From an uncultured Chromatiaceae bacterium (GTDB taxonomy: Bacteria > Pseudomonadota > Gammaproteobacteria > Enterobacterales > Alteromonadaceae), in the NCBI GenBank assembly GCA_946482615.1, contig CAMLSF010000069.1, forward strand, positions 1-18,326: a DNA stretch of 18,326 nucleotides, given 5' to 3'. The translations under genes and the position numbers were made by a program. Under the pieces are notes generated by a model that saw only the letters and a list, made by a program, of their open reading frames with translations, made no database searches and had not been told where the DNA came from. Of the stretch, positions 1,584 to 6,613 are shown piece by piece. Each line of letters starts with the position of its first letter. Position 1 is the stretch's first letter.

Positions 1584-1609
1584 AACAAACTCCTTGGTGG
1601 GTTTGTTCT

Positions 1610-1638
1610 GTTCTATCCTTTCGACCACTCAATTGCAA
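1610..1638 (-). promoter_or_regulatory. probable sigma70 promoter of ggt
   Basis: On the minus strand TTGCAA (1633-1638) and TAGAAC (1610-1615) are separated by 17 bases, 26 bases or more ahead of the ggt start codon and just upstream of its AAGGAG. Both boxes match the consensus at about four of six positions. No operator palindrome is seen here. The rest of the 1639-1820 region holds no gene I can support. Confidence 0.45.
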
Positions 1639-1821
1639 GAGGGGTGTTAAAACTACTTTTATGATCTGAATGCTGAAATTCTAATTGTATGAATGGCTTA
1701 GTATCGAATAGTCTGGAGTTTCAACAGAAGTGATGACATGGATGCGGCTTTATTGGTGAGTTGTTCGTATGATGACGTCACAGACGACTCACTCTGGAGG
1801 TGAAAGAGCAGTTAGCTTTGC

Positions 1822-1850
1822 TTGACTTATGTTTCCCCGGAAACTAAGGT
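1822..1850 (+). promoter_or_regulatory. promoter of the MarR gene with operator in its spacer
   Basis: TTGACT (1822-1827, five of six to the -35 consensus) and TAAGGT (1845-1850, a weak -10) are separated by exactly 17 bases. The palindrome GTTTCC-CC-GGAAAC fills 1831-1844 of that spacer. Transcription would begin about 1857, just before the ribosome binding site AAGGAG at 1861-1866. A protein bound here would block RNA polymerase, which fits autorepression by the MarR protein encoded immediately downstream. Repressor identity is inference. Confidence 0.65.
1831..1844. promoter_or_regulatory. operator copy 1, GTTTCC-N2-GGAAAC
   Basis: A 14-base dyad with six-base half sites, GTTTCC and GGAAAC, and centre CC. 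The identical half sites occur twice more in the window, at 2769-2782 and 2796-2809, both in front of the DUF1398 gene. I found no other paired copy. The clustering around one MarR gene suggests this is its binding site. Confidence 0.7.
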
Positions 1851-1872
1851 GCAAAAACCAAAGGAGATACAA

Positions 1873-2337
1873 ATGCATACAACAACACAGCCGCTTTGTG
1901 CACTGGAAGATCATCTTGGTTTTTGGTTACGTTTTGTCTCTAACCATGTGACTGCCCGCTTTGAGAAATTAATTGCAGCCCATGGCCTGACGGTGACTGA
2001 ATGGGTCGCTTTGCGCACTTTATACACTAAAACAGAGAATACTCATGCTGAGCTGATTCAGGCTTTAGGCATGACTAAAAGTGCTGCGTCTAAAGTGGTT
2101 ACCCGCCTGGAAACCAAAGGTTTAGCAATGCGAACCAGCACAGTACACAGTGCCAAAGAGCAATTTATTGTATTAACACCGCAAGGGCGGGATTTGTTGC
2201 CTGTATTGGCGGCTTGTGCCGATGACAATGAACAGTTCTTTTTTGGTCATCTGGATTTGGGGACCAGACAAGCTTTGCAGCAGTCGATGATGGATTTAAC
2301 TCAACATCACCAATTCACACAGCTGCCAGTCAAATAA
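1873..2337 (+). CDS. MarR-family transcriptional regulator
   Basis: Dimeric winged-helix DNA-binding protein of 154 residues, normal for MarR. I chose ATG 1873 because AAGGAG (1861-1866) stands 6 bases ahead of it; the open frame continues up to a TTG at 1822, but that TTG is the -35 box of the promoter. Visible parts are an N-terminal dimerisation helix (LEDHLGFWLRFV), the helix-turn-helix (LTVTEWVALRTLY, then the recognition helix MTKSAASKVVTRLETKGL) and a wing ending in FIVLTPQGRDLL. The wing lacks the common D-x-R signature (VHSAKEQ instead), so its DNA contacts may be unusual. Cys9 lies near the start, and a second Cys lies in the C-terminal helix region, so redox sensing is conceivable but unproven. 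The stop lies 9 bases from the end of the facing DUF1398 gene. Matching operators in both promoters suggest it represses itself and that gene. The ligand is unknown. Confidence 0.9.
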   Translation: MHTTTQPLCALEDHLGFWLRFVSNHVTARFEKLIAAHGLTVTEWVALRTLYTKTENTHAELIQALGMTKSAASKVVTRLETKGLAMRTSTVHSAKEQFIVLTPQGRDLLPVLAACADDNEQFFFGHLDLGTRQALQQSMMDLTQHHQFTQLPVK

Positions 2338-2346
2338 GCAGGCTTT

Positions 2347-2742
2347 TTACTTTGGAAAATGTTCAATGTGCTGTTCACCTTTGCGGCCAAAATAGCAAAC
2401 ATGACGACCTGCAATCCAGACGATATAGCCTGTACAACCAGCCTGCATGGAGATCAGCTTAAACTCCGGGTACAGGATCTCACCTTGTTGTGCACCCAGA
2501 ATAGCGCCTTTGAGCACTGTAGCGTCAAAGTTTTGAGCTATCTGCTGATCTGAAGGGGCCATGTGGAGTATCAGATGTTGATCATTGTTTAAATGGTAGG
2601 TGGTTTGTTTGGCTCTGTAATCCACCAGATAAGATTCCACCCCTGCAGCCGATAAAGTGGCAACCACCTGGCCAAAATGAATTTGCCCGGTTTGTGATGC
2701 ATGAAACACCTGATTGATACTGTCGATGATGGCGTTGTCCAT
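2347..2742 (-). CDS. DUF1398 family protein (YbcV-like)
   Basis: Small soluble protein of 131 residues with no signal peptide or membrane segment. It has the features I associate with DUF1398, the family of E. coli YbcV: an early GQVVATLSAAGVESYLVDYR segment, the central GAQQGEILYPEF, and the C-terminal AGCTGYIVWIAGRHVCYFG followed by GEQHIEHFP. The molecular function of the family is not known to me; older records call it an envelope or phage protein without strong support. The start ATG at 2740-2742 has AGGAG a few bases upstream. The gene faces the MarR gene tail to tail with a 9-base gap, and its promoter carries two copies of the operator found in the MarR promoter. It is therefore most likely switched on when the MarR ligand appears, making it a candidate stress, detoxification or ligand-handling protein. 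That role is inference. Confidence 0.85.
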   Translation of the reverse strand: MDNAIIDSINQVFHASQTGQIHFGQVVATLSAAGVESYLVDYRAKQTTYHLNNDQHLILHMAPSDQQIAQNFDATVLKGAILGAQQGEILYPEFKLISMQAGCTGYIVWIAGRHVCYFGRKGEQHIEHFPK

Positions 2743-2768
2743 TTGATTCTCCTGCTATTACCGAAATG

Positions 2769-2782
2769 GTTTCCGTGGAAAC
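2769..2782. promoter_or_regulatory. operator copy 2, GTTTCC-GT-GGAAAC
   Basis: Perfect half sites GTTTCC and GGAAAC. Relative to the minus-strand promoter (-10 at 2790-2795) this copy begins at about the transcription start of the DUF1398 gene. Its centre is 27 bases from that of copy 3, so two dimers could bind side by side. Together they would occlude both the promoter spacer and the start site. Confidence 0.7.
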
Positions 2783-2789
2783 TTGATAG

Positions 2790-2818
2790 ATGATAGTTTC
2801 CGTGGAAACTAAAATCAA
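2790..2818 (-). promoter_or_regulatory. promoter of the DUF1398 gene with operator in its spacer
   Basis: On the minus strand TTGATT (2813-2818) and TATCAT (2790-2795, five of six to the -10 consensus) are separated by exactly 17 bases. The spacer contains operator copy 3 directly against the -10 box. This repeats the architecture of the MarR promoter at 1822-1850. Confidence 0.7.
2796..2809. promoter_or_regulatory. operator copy 3, AGTTTCC-GT-GGAAACT
   Basis: The best copy: with one flanking base on each side (2795-2810) it forms a 16-base dyad AGTTTCCGTGGAAACT, symmetric apart from the central two bases. It lies inside the -35/-10 spacer of the DUF1398 promoter. The secreted haem protein gene starts about 190 bases further on in the other direction, so control of that gene is possible but not shown. 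Confidence 0.72.
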
Positions 2819-3000
2819 GTGCCGGATTATTGTTTTTCTGCAGCTGAGGTATCCCACAGTAAAAAGATTTCAGTTTCTTTTTTTGAAAACCTTCCTTTTT
2901 CAATAATAGCAACTAGAGTTTTCGAAACAGGTAAAAATGGTAAAACCAATACATCCTGTTGCTCGAAGTAAAAACAAACCCAAAGGAAGGAATACTGCAG

Positions 3001-4473
3001 ATGAAATCTATATACAGCTTATCTGGTCTTAGTCTTGTGAGTTTGGCTTTGGCTCTGACTAGTCCTGTTTCGGCAGAGCAGCAAAGTTATGCAGCCTCAG
3101 ATCCGGCCGCTGCCTGTCCTGTTGACCCAAACTGGGTCAGCAACCCATCTATGCCAACAGAGGTTAAAAAAAGCGGTTCAGACGGCAGCTCCAATTTTTG
3201 TGATTTTTACCAGTTTTCTAATCAGGCTTTTTTATATCTGATGTCACAAAACAGCAAAGGGCAACGCAACTTTATGGATCTGAGTGTTTACCCTTTGCTG
3301 GAGTTTGATGCCAAAGGTAATCCGGTCAATTCCTGTGACGAAAAGGTCACAGGCGCAACTTTAAGAACCAGCCTGGATAAAGGTGACAGCACTTCTATCT
3401 CAACGGAACAGGCAGGAGATGGCGCTACTATTTATGCGCAGGATGGTAATGTTGTCTATTACGATGTGCGTTTTGATAAAGGCATGTGTAGTCTGTCGGG
3501 CAGTGCGGTGGAGCTGCAGAAACAAAATCTGATTAACTTCCCGTCCGGTACCACTGAAATAAAAGCAGCCTGGAAGCTGTTGTCTGCTGCTGAAGTGGCA
3601 GCTGGTACTTTTGTCACTCAACCCCAGACCATTGGGGGTCAAAACGTGACTTTAGGTTTAGTCGGCATGCATCTGGCTATTGCAACCACAGATCACCCGG
3701 AATTTGTCTGGGCAACCTATGAGCACAGAGTCAACTCTCCGGATTGCACCCCGGCTACGCCTCAGCCTGCCTCCCCCTGGACTTTTGCCAGTGCCAGTTG
3801 CACTGCAGGGTTACCTGGTACAGCAATCAGCGGTAATGACTGCAACTTTAATAACCCTCTGGAAAATCAAACTGCACCTACAGGCGTACCAACGAACATT
3901 TGCCGGGTTCATCCTTATGGCACAGCTGCAGGTGATTTAAAAGCCGCTGAAAATGTGGCAGATATTCAAGCGCAAAACCGTGGTATAGGGGCTTTGGTGT
4001 CTGCTGCTGGAGCACCAGCCGGCATGCCGGTGTTGGGCAATTATTTTAATGTCGGCGCTTTGTGGGTCAGTGACATTTCTAAAAGTTCAGGTGGGGTGGG
4101 TGTACCTAATGAGCGGGGTTCGTTACGCTTAGCCAACACAGTGGCTGAAACCACATTCCAAAACGTTGATTTACAAAAAAGTTTTGCCAGTAACTGCTTT
4201 GGTTGCCATAACTATGTGGGGACAGGCCAGACGGTCAGTAACAATATTACGTCGCAAAATCTGAGCCATATCTTTTTAGATGTAAAAATTGGGCAAGGTG
4301 AAAATGTGGACGTAACATCCCCTACAGTGATTAGCAACAACAGTGCTGCTGCAGGTATCTGTGGTGGTGCAACAGGAGTCTGCCAAAACGCGGCCAGTAA
4401 TCTGAAATGGAACGGTAACTGGACCAACGCCAATGCCAGTGCTGGTTCTGTCTGCGGTTGTACAGCCCAATAA
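3001..4473 (+). CDS. secreted protein with one c-type haem motif, family unknown
   Basis: I do not recognise a named family. From ATG 3001 the product is 490 residues, with AAGGAAGG (2983-2990) ahead of it; an upstream TTG at 2959 in the same frame lacks such a site. A clear signal peptide (MKSIYSLSGLSLVSLALALT, cut near VSA-EQQ, residue 25) sends it to the periplasm. A single haem-binding motif C-F-G-C-H occupies residues 399-403 (codons from 4195), so covalent haem attachment by the cytochrome c maturation system is expected. The region before it is long and contains scattered cysteines, an aromatic-rich stretch NFCDFYQFSNQAFLYL, and GMHLAIATTDHPEFVWATYEH. After the motif come CGGATGVC and a C-terminal VCGC. 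The haem therefore sits near the C-terminus of a large non-cytochrome domain, as in some periplasmic redox enzymes. It appears monocistronic, converging on the siderophore receptor. Confidence 0.8.
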   Translation: MKSIYSLSGLSLVSLALALTSPVSAEQQSYAASDPAAACPVDPNWVSNPSMPTEVKKSGSDGSSNFCDFYQFSNQAFLYLMSQNSKGQRNFMDLSVYPLLEFDAKGNPVNSCDEKVTGATLRTSLDKGDSTSISTEQAGDGATIYAQDGNVVYYDVRFDKGMCSLSGSAVELQKQNLINFPSGTTEIKAAWKLLSAAEVAAGTFVTQPQTIGGQNVTLGLVGMHLAIATTDHPEFVWATYEHRVNSPDCTPATPQPASPWTFASASCTAGLPGTAISGNDCNFNNPLENQTAPTGVPTNICRVHPYGTAAGDLKAAENVADIQAQNRGIGALVSAAGAPAGMPVLGNYFNVGALWVSDISKSSGGVGVPNERGSLRLANTVAETTFQNVDLQKSFASNCFGCHNYVGTGQTVSNNITSQNLSHIFLDVKIGQGENVDVTSPTVISNNSAAAGICGGATGVCQNAASNLKWNGNWTNANASAGSVCGCTAQ

Positions 4474-4513: not shown

Positions 4514-6613
4514 TTAATACCGCCAGGTGATGGATGCTTGCCACTGGCGTGGTGCACCATAATAGGCCTGAGTCCAGTACAGGCTTTCGTAGTATTTTTT
4601 ATCTGTGACATTCATCCCATTCAGCGCCAATGACAGGTTGTCATTGAGCTGATACCGCACAAACAAATCCAGTAAAGCATAACTGTCCTGCGTGATGGTG
4701 ACATCGGCTTCAGGGCTGGTGTAGACACTATCCTGCCATTGTACGCTGGCACCAAAAGATAAATCCGGCAGCAGTTCAGGATAATACACACCGGAAACTT
4801 TGACTAAGTCACGGGGTACATAAGTGCGTACCTGTTCGCCGTTATTGCCCTCAACACTATGCAGCCAGGTGTAGCCCAGACTCAGGTTGAACTGATCCGT
4901 GACAGAACCGATCAATTCAAGTTCAGCCCCTTCTGAGCTGTAATCCAGACCACTGTAGGTATTCACGCCGTTGACCACCCCGATAAACTCACCGACATTG
5001 TTTAAGTCGGAACGAAACAAGGCAAAGCTTGCTGTGGCGCGGGAATTATTTAACGAAAATTTAGTGCCTATTTCGCTGTGTTCACCCTGAGCCACCCCCA
5101 GCGCGTTAAAGTCCGTATCAACAAAAGACTGAGGCGTAAAAACCTCACTGTAGCTACCGTAAAACGCCAGGCTATCATTGAGCTGATACATAGCGCCGAC
5201 ATAAGGCACAGTTTCGTCTGCATCGGATGACGCATCCACGCCATAGTTATAACCACTTTGTTGCACTGACATAGTTCGGGCACCAGCCAGAACTGACAGT
5301 TGATCGGTCAAATGCAGGCGGGTGGCAAAATAGGCTGATTGATGAATTTGTTTGTCTTTGTGACCTGTGCTGTAAGGGTCAGTGTCATCAAATACACCTT
5401 TGACTGAATTACCCAAAGCCCAGTCGCTGCCAAGCACCGGATAACCTGTTTCGTAGTCGTAAAAGGACTGGCCAAACAAATCAATATGGGCATAGTTTAC
5501 CCCCAGCATTAGTTCATGCTGTCGACCCGCTAAGTTAAATTTGCCTGTCAGATACAAGTCACCCATTTTTTGGGTTTCGTCCATATCGTAGCCATAGGCA
5601 TAACCCAAAAGACCAATTTCAGTGCCGCGCTCTGGCGTGCCATACACATAAAATAATTCAGAGTCCATGCGGCTGTCGTTTTGACTCAGGTGCAGATTCA
5701 AACTCCAGTCGGCGGATAACTGATGGCGTAGCTCGGCAAAACTTTGTTTACTTTTTACATCTCGAAAGGCCCAGTCTGTGGCTGTGTTGGTGGATACCGC
5801 ATAATCTGTGGCTGTGCCATCAGTGTAATAAAGTGGCAATGCCCCGGACATACTGCCATCCACTTTATTGTTATTACTGCTATGGCCGAAAGTGAACAGG
5901 GTGTTGTCGCTCAGATCGTATTCAGCGACCAGATAAATCAGGCCGTTGTCGTCAGATTTACGGTCCAGATAGGAGTCTGCGGATTCTTTAGCGGCGACAG
6001 CGCGACCACGCAGATCTTCAGTCAAACTGCCGGATACATCAGCTTCAGCCCGGCGCATTTGTTCTGAGGCCACAGATAAAGTGCCATAAGCGGCCAGATC
6101 TTGAGTTGGACGCTTGCGGATATAGTTGACTGTAGCGGATGGGTTGGCAAGACCTGTGACCAAACCCGCAGCCCCTTTGATCACTTCAATTTGTTCAAAA
6201 GCTGCAGTGTCGTACTGACCATTGGTTAAGCCGGATGAGAAAGGCACACCTATACCGTCGTACTGAAAGTTGACCACATCAAAACCACGGGCTGTGTAAT
6301 AAGTACGGTCTGTTTCGACACTTTCTACCGTCACACCCGGGGTGTAGCTTAAGAGTTCATTAACCGAATGCAGTGAAAAATCTTCAATTTGTGGTCTGGA
6401 GACCACAGTCACGGTTTGTGGGGTTTCATACAGAGTTAAATCCAGTTTAGTGGCGGTACGACTGTCGCCCTGTTCGCCATAAACTGCGATGACTTCGACA
6501 TCAGACTCTTCGGTGTTTTGCGCCAGAGTGACGGTACTTAAACCGGCCAACGAAAATGCCAGACTGATCTGAACAGCTTTAGATAAAACTGAGTAGTTAA
6601 AGGACGGCTGCAT
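4514..6613 (-). CDS. TonB-dependent ferric siderophore receptor (FhuE/FpvA-like)
   Basis: Outer-membrane receptor that imports iron-siderophore complexes using energy from TonB-ExbB-ExbD. I start it at ATG 6611-6613 (699 residues); the open frame reaches TTG 6688, but those extra codons cover the promoter and Fur box. Seen: signal peptide MQPSFNYSVLSKAVQISLAF ending TLA-Q; a TonB box region EVIAVYG; a plug domain with ETPQTVTVVSRPQIEDF, LLSYTPGVTVE, ARGFDVVNFQYDG and IEVIKGAAGLVTGLANPS; then a long barrel ending in NVTDKKYYESLYWTQAYYG and a terminal aromatic WRY. The plug (GAAGLVTG rather than GPQGTLYG) and the YYG-PR ending are typical of hydroxamate or pyoverdine-type siderophore receptors. 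The exact siderophore cannot be read from sequence. It ends opposite the haem protein and diverges from the DUF2007 gene. Confidence 0.93.
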   Translation of the reverse strand: MQPSFNYSVLSKAVQISLAFSLAGLSTVTLAQNTEESDVEVIAVYGEQGDSRTATKLDLTLYETPQTVTVVSRPQIEDFSLHSVNELLSYTPGVTVESVETDRTYYTARGFDVVNFQYDGIGVPFSSGLTNGQYDTAAFEQIEVIKGAAGLVTGLANPSATVNYIRKRPTQDLAAYGTLSVASEQMRRAEADVSGSLTEDLRGRAVAAKESADSYLDRKSDDNGLIYLVAEYDLSDNTLFTFGHSSNNNKVDGSMSGALPLYYTDGTATDYAVSTNTATDWAFRDVKSKQSFAELRHQLSADWSLNLHLSQNDSRMDSELFYVYGTPERGTEIGLLGYAYGYDMDETQKMGDLYLTGKFNLAGRQHELMLGVNYAHIDLFGQSFYDYETGYPVLGSDWALGNSVKGVFDDTDPYSTGHKDKQIHQSAYFATRLHLTDQLSVLAGARTMSVQQSGYNYGVDASSDADETVPYVGAMYQLNDSLAFYGSYSEVFTPQSFVDTDFNALGVAQGEHSEIGTKFSLNNSRATASFALFRSDLNNVGEFIGVVNGVNTYSGLDYSSEGAELELIGSVTDQFNLSLGYTWLHSVEGNNGEQVRTYVPRDLVKVSGVYYPELLPDLSFGASVQWQDSVYTSPEADVTITQDSYALLDLFVRYQLNDNLSLALNGMNVTDKKYYESLYWTQAYYGAPRQWQASITWRY

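Follow-up and report, generated by a model that had tools for sequence, protein, structure and literature searches.

A MarR-type regulator gene, a DUF1398 gene and a candidate operator confined to this gene pair in the genomes tested

A stretch of 18,326 nucleotides from an uncultured Chromatiaceae bacterium (contig CAMLSF010000069.1 of assembly GCA_946482615.1), referred to here as the window, carries a gene for a MarR-family regulator and, next to it, a gene for a protein of the DUF1398 family. It is likely that this pair constitutes a local autorepressing switch with the DUF1398 protein as its output. The computational analysis revealed that the palindrome GTTTCC-N2-GGAAAC is conserved at the pair, confined to it in the genomes tested and positioned within promoters, that the two genes are associated in many loci and that the predicted fold of the DUF1398 protein is that of YdfO of Escherichia coli. 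We infer that the MarR protein binds the site, represses from it and is released by a ligand. Binding of the palindrome and joint repression of its own gene and of the DUF1398 gene are very likely, and the DUF1398 gene is with good probability the only other target of the regulator.

Three identical palindromes at the gene pair

The regulator gene is located on the forward strand (1873-2337; 154 amino acids) and converges with the DUF1398 gene on the reverse strand (2347-2742; 131 amino acids). Exact copies of GTTTCC-N2-GGAAAC are present at positions 1831-1844, 2769-2782 and 2796-2809, all of them at the marR/DUF1398 pair, and no further copy with up to two mismatches was detected in the window. 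The three identical palindromes that the first-pass annotation, made from the sequence alone, had placed next to these genes as operators were thus confirmed at the coordinates given there. When two mismatches were allowed, three matches were reached in 5 of 200 shuffled windows, and the weight of the observation therefore lies in the exactness of the copies. In 2,000 simulated first-order Markov sequences of the window, the mean number of exact copies of the palindrome was 0.002 and the largest number was 1. The window contains nine perfect 6-N2-6 palindromes, among which GTTTCC-N2-GGAAAC is the sole one that repeats.

The most likely start of marR, as read from the sequence, is the ATG at 1873 with the motif AAGGAG at 1861-1866. 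The TTG at 1822, given as the start in the mechanical list of open reading frames, was set aside in favour of this codon.

Conservation of the palindrome and its confinement to the pair

A scan of genome contigs with a DUF1398 alignment provided 74 public loci and thus, together with the window, 75 loci, in which genes were matched by tblastn and by profiles, the initial gene calling being poor in GC-rich loci. A close relative of the MarR protein adjoins DUF1398 in 47 of the 75 loci, a number that includes a marR match with stop codons (L018), one with a 5' part unlike its relatives (L013) and one partial match (L014). In 44 of these loci, marR precedes DUF1398 on the same strand, in most cases together with a tandem operator; the genes converge, in a layout with two promoters, in 2 of the 47, namely the window and L001, and a single locus shows a divergent arrangement. 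Allowing at most one mismatch, the palindrome was detected no farther than 250 bp from the start of the marR or DUF1398 match in 45 of the 47 MarR-bearing loci, with at least two sites in 34 of them, and in none of the 28 DUF1398 loci without this MarR. The upstream DNA available in the latter comprised at least 1.8 kb in 24 loci, 440 bp in one and less than 50 bp in three (L019, L031 and L071). In 700 kb of locus DNA, only one of 82 sites was located away from the pair (L054).

The search was extended to 25 whole genomes, selected because they contain loci out of the 46 public ones that bear this MarR. These genomes contain 29 exact sites, distributed over 22 of them, and all 29 are located at the pair, as determined by the gene matches in 22 returned loci and, for second sites, by position; a reversed-pattern control gave five sites. 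With the relaxed pattern GTTTCYNNRGAAAC, 50 sites were obtained, 41 at the pair and nine elsewhere, versus 41 sites for the reversed control, and the sites elsewhere thus provide no sign of a wider regulon.

Searches that started from the operator or from the regulator led to the same gene pair. In 399 genomes drawn from the order of G012, the genome of a Variovorax locus, the tandem pattern occurred five times and its reversed control not at all; all five tandem sites adjoin a MarR gene and a DUF1398 gene, two of the five genomes (G002 and G012) being known already. A profile of the MarR subfamily, applied to the same genomes with up to nine candidates scored per genome, identified nine genes. 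A DUF1398 relative adjoins each of them, the match being weak in two cases (32-42% identity over about 60 residues), and each is preceded by a dyad with 0, 1 or 2 mismatches. DUF1398 itself was found in 18 of the 399 genomes at the cut-off used.

These data support the proposal that the two genes form a self-contained unit, which has an operator of its own and DUF1398 as main output, all exact sites in the 25 genomes being located at the pair. The comparison of MarR-DUF1398 pairs, which had been suggested as a check, recovered the palindrome in 45 of 47 loci and, at 0-2 mismatches, in nine of nine regulator-first cases. Homologous pairs devoid of the palindrome, which would have contradicted the proposal, were mostly not encountered, although the sequence has drifted to 2-3 mismatches in three of the four plasmid loci from alphaproteobacteria, and the palindrome did not recur throughout the genomes searched. 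The palindrome by itself names no protein, and it might belong to another, global transcription factor that controls the pair incidentally. Sites elsewhere would be expected of such a factor, yet the 25 genomes hold no exact site away from the pair and none of the 28 MarR-less DUF1398 loci carries one, the three with less than 50 bp of upstream DNA included, so that this explanation is very improbable.

Promoter architecture and proposed mode of regulation

In the window, two of the palindromes occupy 17-bp spacers of promoter-like elements on opposite strands and the third covers the start region of DUF1398, a placement that had been noted before and that is read directly from the sequence. 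The predicted operator O1 of marR (1831-1844, forward strand), with the sequence GTTTCC-CC-GGAAAC, lies between a -35-like hexamer TTGACT (1822-1827) and, immediately downstream, a weak -10-like hexamer TAAGGT (1845-1850). On the reverse strand, the elements of the DUF1398 promoter are a -35-like hexamer TTGATT (2813-2818), the predicted operator O1 (2796-2809), a -10-like hexamer TATCAT (2790-2795), the predicted operator O2 (2769-2782), located 27 bp from O1 over the expected transcription start, and a Shine-Dalgarno-like motif AGGAGA (2748-2753). The operators were assigned by sequence inspection and motif scan, in the case of the two O1 sites also by homologous promoters, and both hexamers of the DUF1398 promoter were additionally found by a promoter scan.

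The same layout was apparent in a set of 47 promoters that includes two from the window and two from L001 and in which sites were selected at no more than two mismatches. The O1 arms GTTTC and GAAAC are invariant in this set, which is partly a product of the selection. The motif TAnnnT directly follows O1 in 41 of the 47 promoters; in 36, the first base of a TTG trinucleotide is located 9 bp before O1, and in nine a TTGA is shifted by one base to either side. The distance between O1 and O2 ranges from 21 to 35 bp and amounts to 26-28 bp in 21 of 36 promoters. The end of O2 is located at most eight bases before an ATG or GTG codon in 27 of 31 tandem promoters, and this codon shares the reading frame of the matched gene in 26 of the 31. 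The right arm of O2, GGAAAC, may double as a ribosome-binding site, in which case one element would serve repression on the DNA as well as translation. In locus L049, a tandem operator with one mismatch (4922-4960) is located between marR and DUF1398 and only a dyad with two mismatches precedes marR, so that the stronger operator goes with DUF1398.

An operator between the -35 and -10 regions is in agreement with a repressor that excludes RNA polymerase rather than with an activator, and release by a ligand is the default within the MarR family. In the proposed mechanism, a MarR dimer would bind GTTTCC-N2-GGAAAC; on O1 it would fill the -35/-10 spacer and exclude RNA polymerase, and on O2 it would cover the start region and thereby strengthen the block. 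A small molecule or a stress signal would then free the repressor, with the result that DUF1398 and more MarR protein would be made, and the DUF1398 protein might act on the inducing condition.

The MarR protein and the nature of the signal

The regulator of the window contains a winged-helix domain, with scores of 39.7 bits for Pfam MarR_2 (cut-off 27) and 35.1 bits for Pfam MarR (cut-off 24.6). Its best NCBIfam match, the Saro_0803 family NF053777, reached 39.6 bits and thus remained below the cut-off of 200 for membership. Among the matches listed, the nearest relative with a named organism is a MarR protein of Rheinheimera faecalis (84% identity).

The signal is probably a small molecule. 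An OhrR-like regulator that senses oxidants by means of a cysteine is suggested by a weak match to the OhrR family (25.3 bits versus a cut-off of 200) and by a link between YdfO and oxidative stress that has been stated in print, the statement being available at second hand. The thiol-sensing OhrR subgroup possesses a conserved sensing cysteine. No cysteine is present among the invariant or near-invariant positions of the MarR subfamily in alignments of 20 and 68 rows, and a cysteine-based switch is consequently disfavoured and hardly to be expected here. The release by an oxidant that the first-pass annotation had considered thus lost ground in its cysteine form.

The DUF1398 protein and its relation to YdfO

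The protein encoded by the second gene of the pair matches Pfam DUF1398 (PF07166) with 41.8 bits versus a cut-off of 22. A fold comparison matched its predicted fold to the solved structure of E. coli YdfO (PDB 2hh8) at about 14% sequence identity, and a sequence-profile search of the PDB gave no convincing relative. The protein looks internally duplicated, a unit of two helices and three strands being present twice. In E. coli, YbcV and YcgX have been named as homologues of YdfO (PMC3509220), and ydfO and ybcV are located on prophages according to the accessible text. YdfO differs from the protein of the window by its low identity of 14% and its location on a prophage, and the available part of the literature mentions no MarR partner of the present kind. 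Within the open-licence literature searched, as far as its text was accessible, no function was found for the DUF1398 proteins YdfO, YbcV and YcgX.

Most likely, although by conjecture, the DUF1398 protein is a stress protein or a protein that binds small molecules. That it acts on the same molecule as the inducer can be suggested only tentatively. The pair may perhaps be a horizontally spread chemical-sensing module, composed of a MarR subfamily with a fixed operator and a single target and of a DUF1398 protein that binds or neutralises the inducer. If the latter holds true, the pair provides a first handle on the function of the DUF1398/YdfO family. A dedicated regulator together with a defined operator makes the question of DUF1398 function testable.

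Distribution of the pair and independence of DUF1398

The MarR protein was detected, at the cut-off used, in one of 98 genomes of the L001 family, that of L001 itself, and in two of 22 genomes of the L001 genus, namely that of L001 and one with 42% identity. In a further genome of this genus (L103), the gene order is DUF1398-marR, and an exact dyad and one with two mismatches precede DUF1398. Among 21 plasmid matches, four, which come from alphaproteobacteria, were examined: the pair is annotated on plasmids of Azospirillum and Methylocystis and was detected by tblastn in Sinorhizobium, and the plasmid of Agrobacterium vitis provided the MarR gene and part of a DUF1398 match only. The distribution is patchy. 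With no other shared neighbour apparent, the pair travels or persists as a unit, and it may have spread horizontally.

A search for function by neighbourhood remained without a candidate. An all-against-all comparison of the open frames in the 75 loci yielded seven clusters present in at least five loci, and no shared adjacent gene stood out. The four clusters richest at the pair represent marR, DUF1398 or open frames that overlap with these genes (119 of 136, 130 of 169, 46 of 46 and 10 of 10 members). Three remaining clusters, from 11, six and five loci, do not overlap with the pair and have two, five and two members within 2.5 kb of DUF1398. In a Pfam tally of 68 of 162 candidate neighbours from MarR-linked loci and 47 of 104 from other loci, the maximum was four of 68 for the LysR substrate domain in the former and two of 47 for any family in the latter.

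The strict pairing of MarR with DUF1398 in the regulator-first search (nine of nine) and the lack of other shared neighbours would also be in agreement with a DUF1398 protein that is a partner of the regulator, for example an anti-repressor or a ligand carrier feeding back on it, instead of the final output. DUF1398 is nevertheless retained without this MarR in 28 of the 75 loci, and in a DUF1398 tree of 71 rows the linked and unlinked proteins interleave, with 17 label changes versus a shuffled mean of 21.9 (5 of 500 shuffles being as low). The number of 17 is inflated by the three loci with less than 50 bp of upstream DNA (L019, L031 and L071), by the decayed marR of L018 and by the partial match of L014. 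Since DUF1398 is often kept without MarR and interleaves on the tree, an independent role of the protein is probable, and the partner explanation is unlikely.

Two small genes with autoregulatory palindromes, a patchy distribution and the lack of shared neighbours likewise recall a mobile toxin-antitoxin or defence pair that is autoregulated by its DNA-binding member. The persistence of DUF1398 where MarR is absent (28 of 75 loci, three of them cut by contig ends) or decayed is unexpected for a toxin without its antidote. PADLOC gave no match for DUF1398, and for the MarR protein only weak matches to CARF and Csa3 models were obtained. An explanation of this type is therefore most improbable. 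No match was obtained when phages were searched with the DUF1398 protein or when plasmids were searched for distant similarity at the DNA level, and PHROGs gave weak matches only.

Decay of the regulator gene was seen in L018 (G006:C1:2346741-2347115), in which the marR match contains four stop codons and two exact operators and DUF1398 remain. A marR match with one in-frame TAA was reported for L025 (G010:C8:21628-22083).

Several observations weigh against a local MarR switch with DUF1398 as output. The -10 hexamer of marR in the window shares only three of six bases with the consensus. In the promoter scan of 1600-3050, the DUF1398 promoter and, at 1707-1678, an unrelated site were listed and the marR promoter was not, the number of two sites being at chance level (shuffle mean 2.4); the promoter placement in the window is still supported, because the homologous promoters share this layout. 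Strict cooperative phasing of the operators is not indicated, since the O1-O2 spacing spans 21-35 bp. Two loci with a MarR match, L013 and L014, lack a site; in L013, the 5' part of marR and the upstream DNA are unlike those of the relatives, and in L014, a contig of 3.3 kb, the MarR match is partial. The best dyads deviate from the consensus by 2-3 mismatches in three of the four plasmid loci from alphaproteobacteria, and in all four the two best dyads are spaced by 25-26 bp and, as read, differ in placement by overlapping the promoter hexamers themselves. The frequent occurrence of DUF1398 without this MarR indicates that the gene can be under other control. With respect to the output, ydfO was not induced in cultures that contained the ionic liquid from the outset, according to the accessible text, and the phenotype of YdfO derives from a protein that is only about 14% identical to the DUF1398 protein.

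Comparison with known MarR systems

MarR, SlyA, HosA and OhrR represent local autoregulated systems of this family. The present regulator resembles them as a predicted winged-helix repressor whose own promoter contains a short palindrome as putative binding site, and differs by the operator sequence, the tandem layout and DUF1398 as the single evident target. The MarR protein Saro_0803 of Novosphingobium controls nov1 and is released by resveratrol; it is likewise encoded beside its target gene, and its site overlaps the -35/-10 region, whereas the inverted repeat is GCAATA...TATTGC and the target is a stilbene-cleaving enzyme instead of a DUF1398 protein (available text of PMC10046596). MarR autorepressors are thus already known, and no description of this subfamily, of its operator or of the pairing with DUF1398 was found in the accessible text of the open-licence literature searched. 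The operator is found in nearly the same form at this gene pair even in bacteria that are only distantly related, and its confinement to the pair (29 of 29 exact sites in 25 genomes) makes it a candidate for a clean repressor-operator part.

Additional features of the window

The ends of marR and DUF1398 are separated by 9 bp in convergent orientation (2337-2347), and no terminator-like site was found in the region 1600-3050; the two transcripts may overlap in antisense orientation. The region 3001-4473 encodes a protein of 490 amino acids that gave no Pfam match above the cut-off and contains the sequence CFGCH, which we take to be a heme-type motif.
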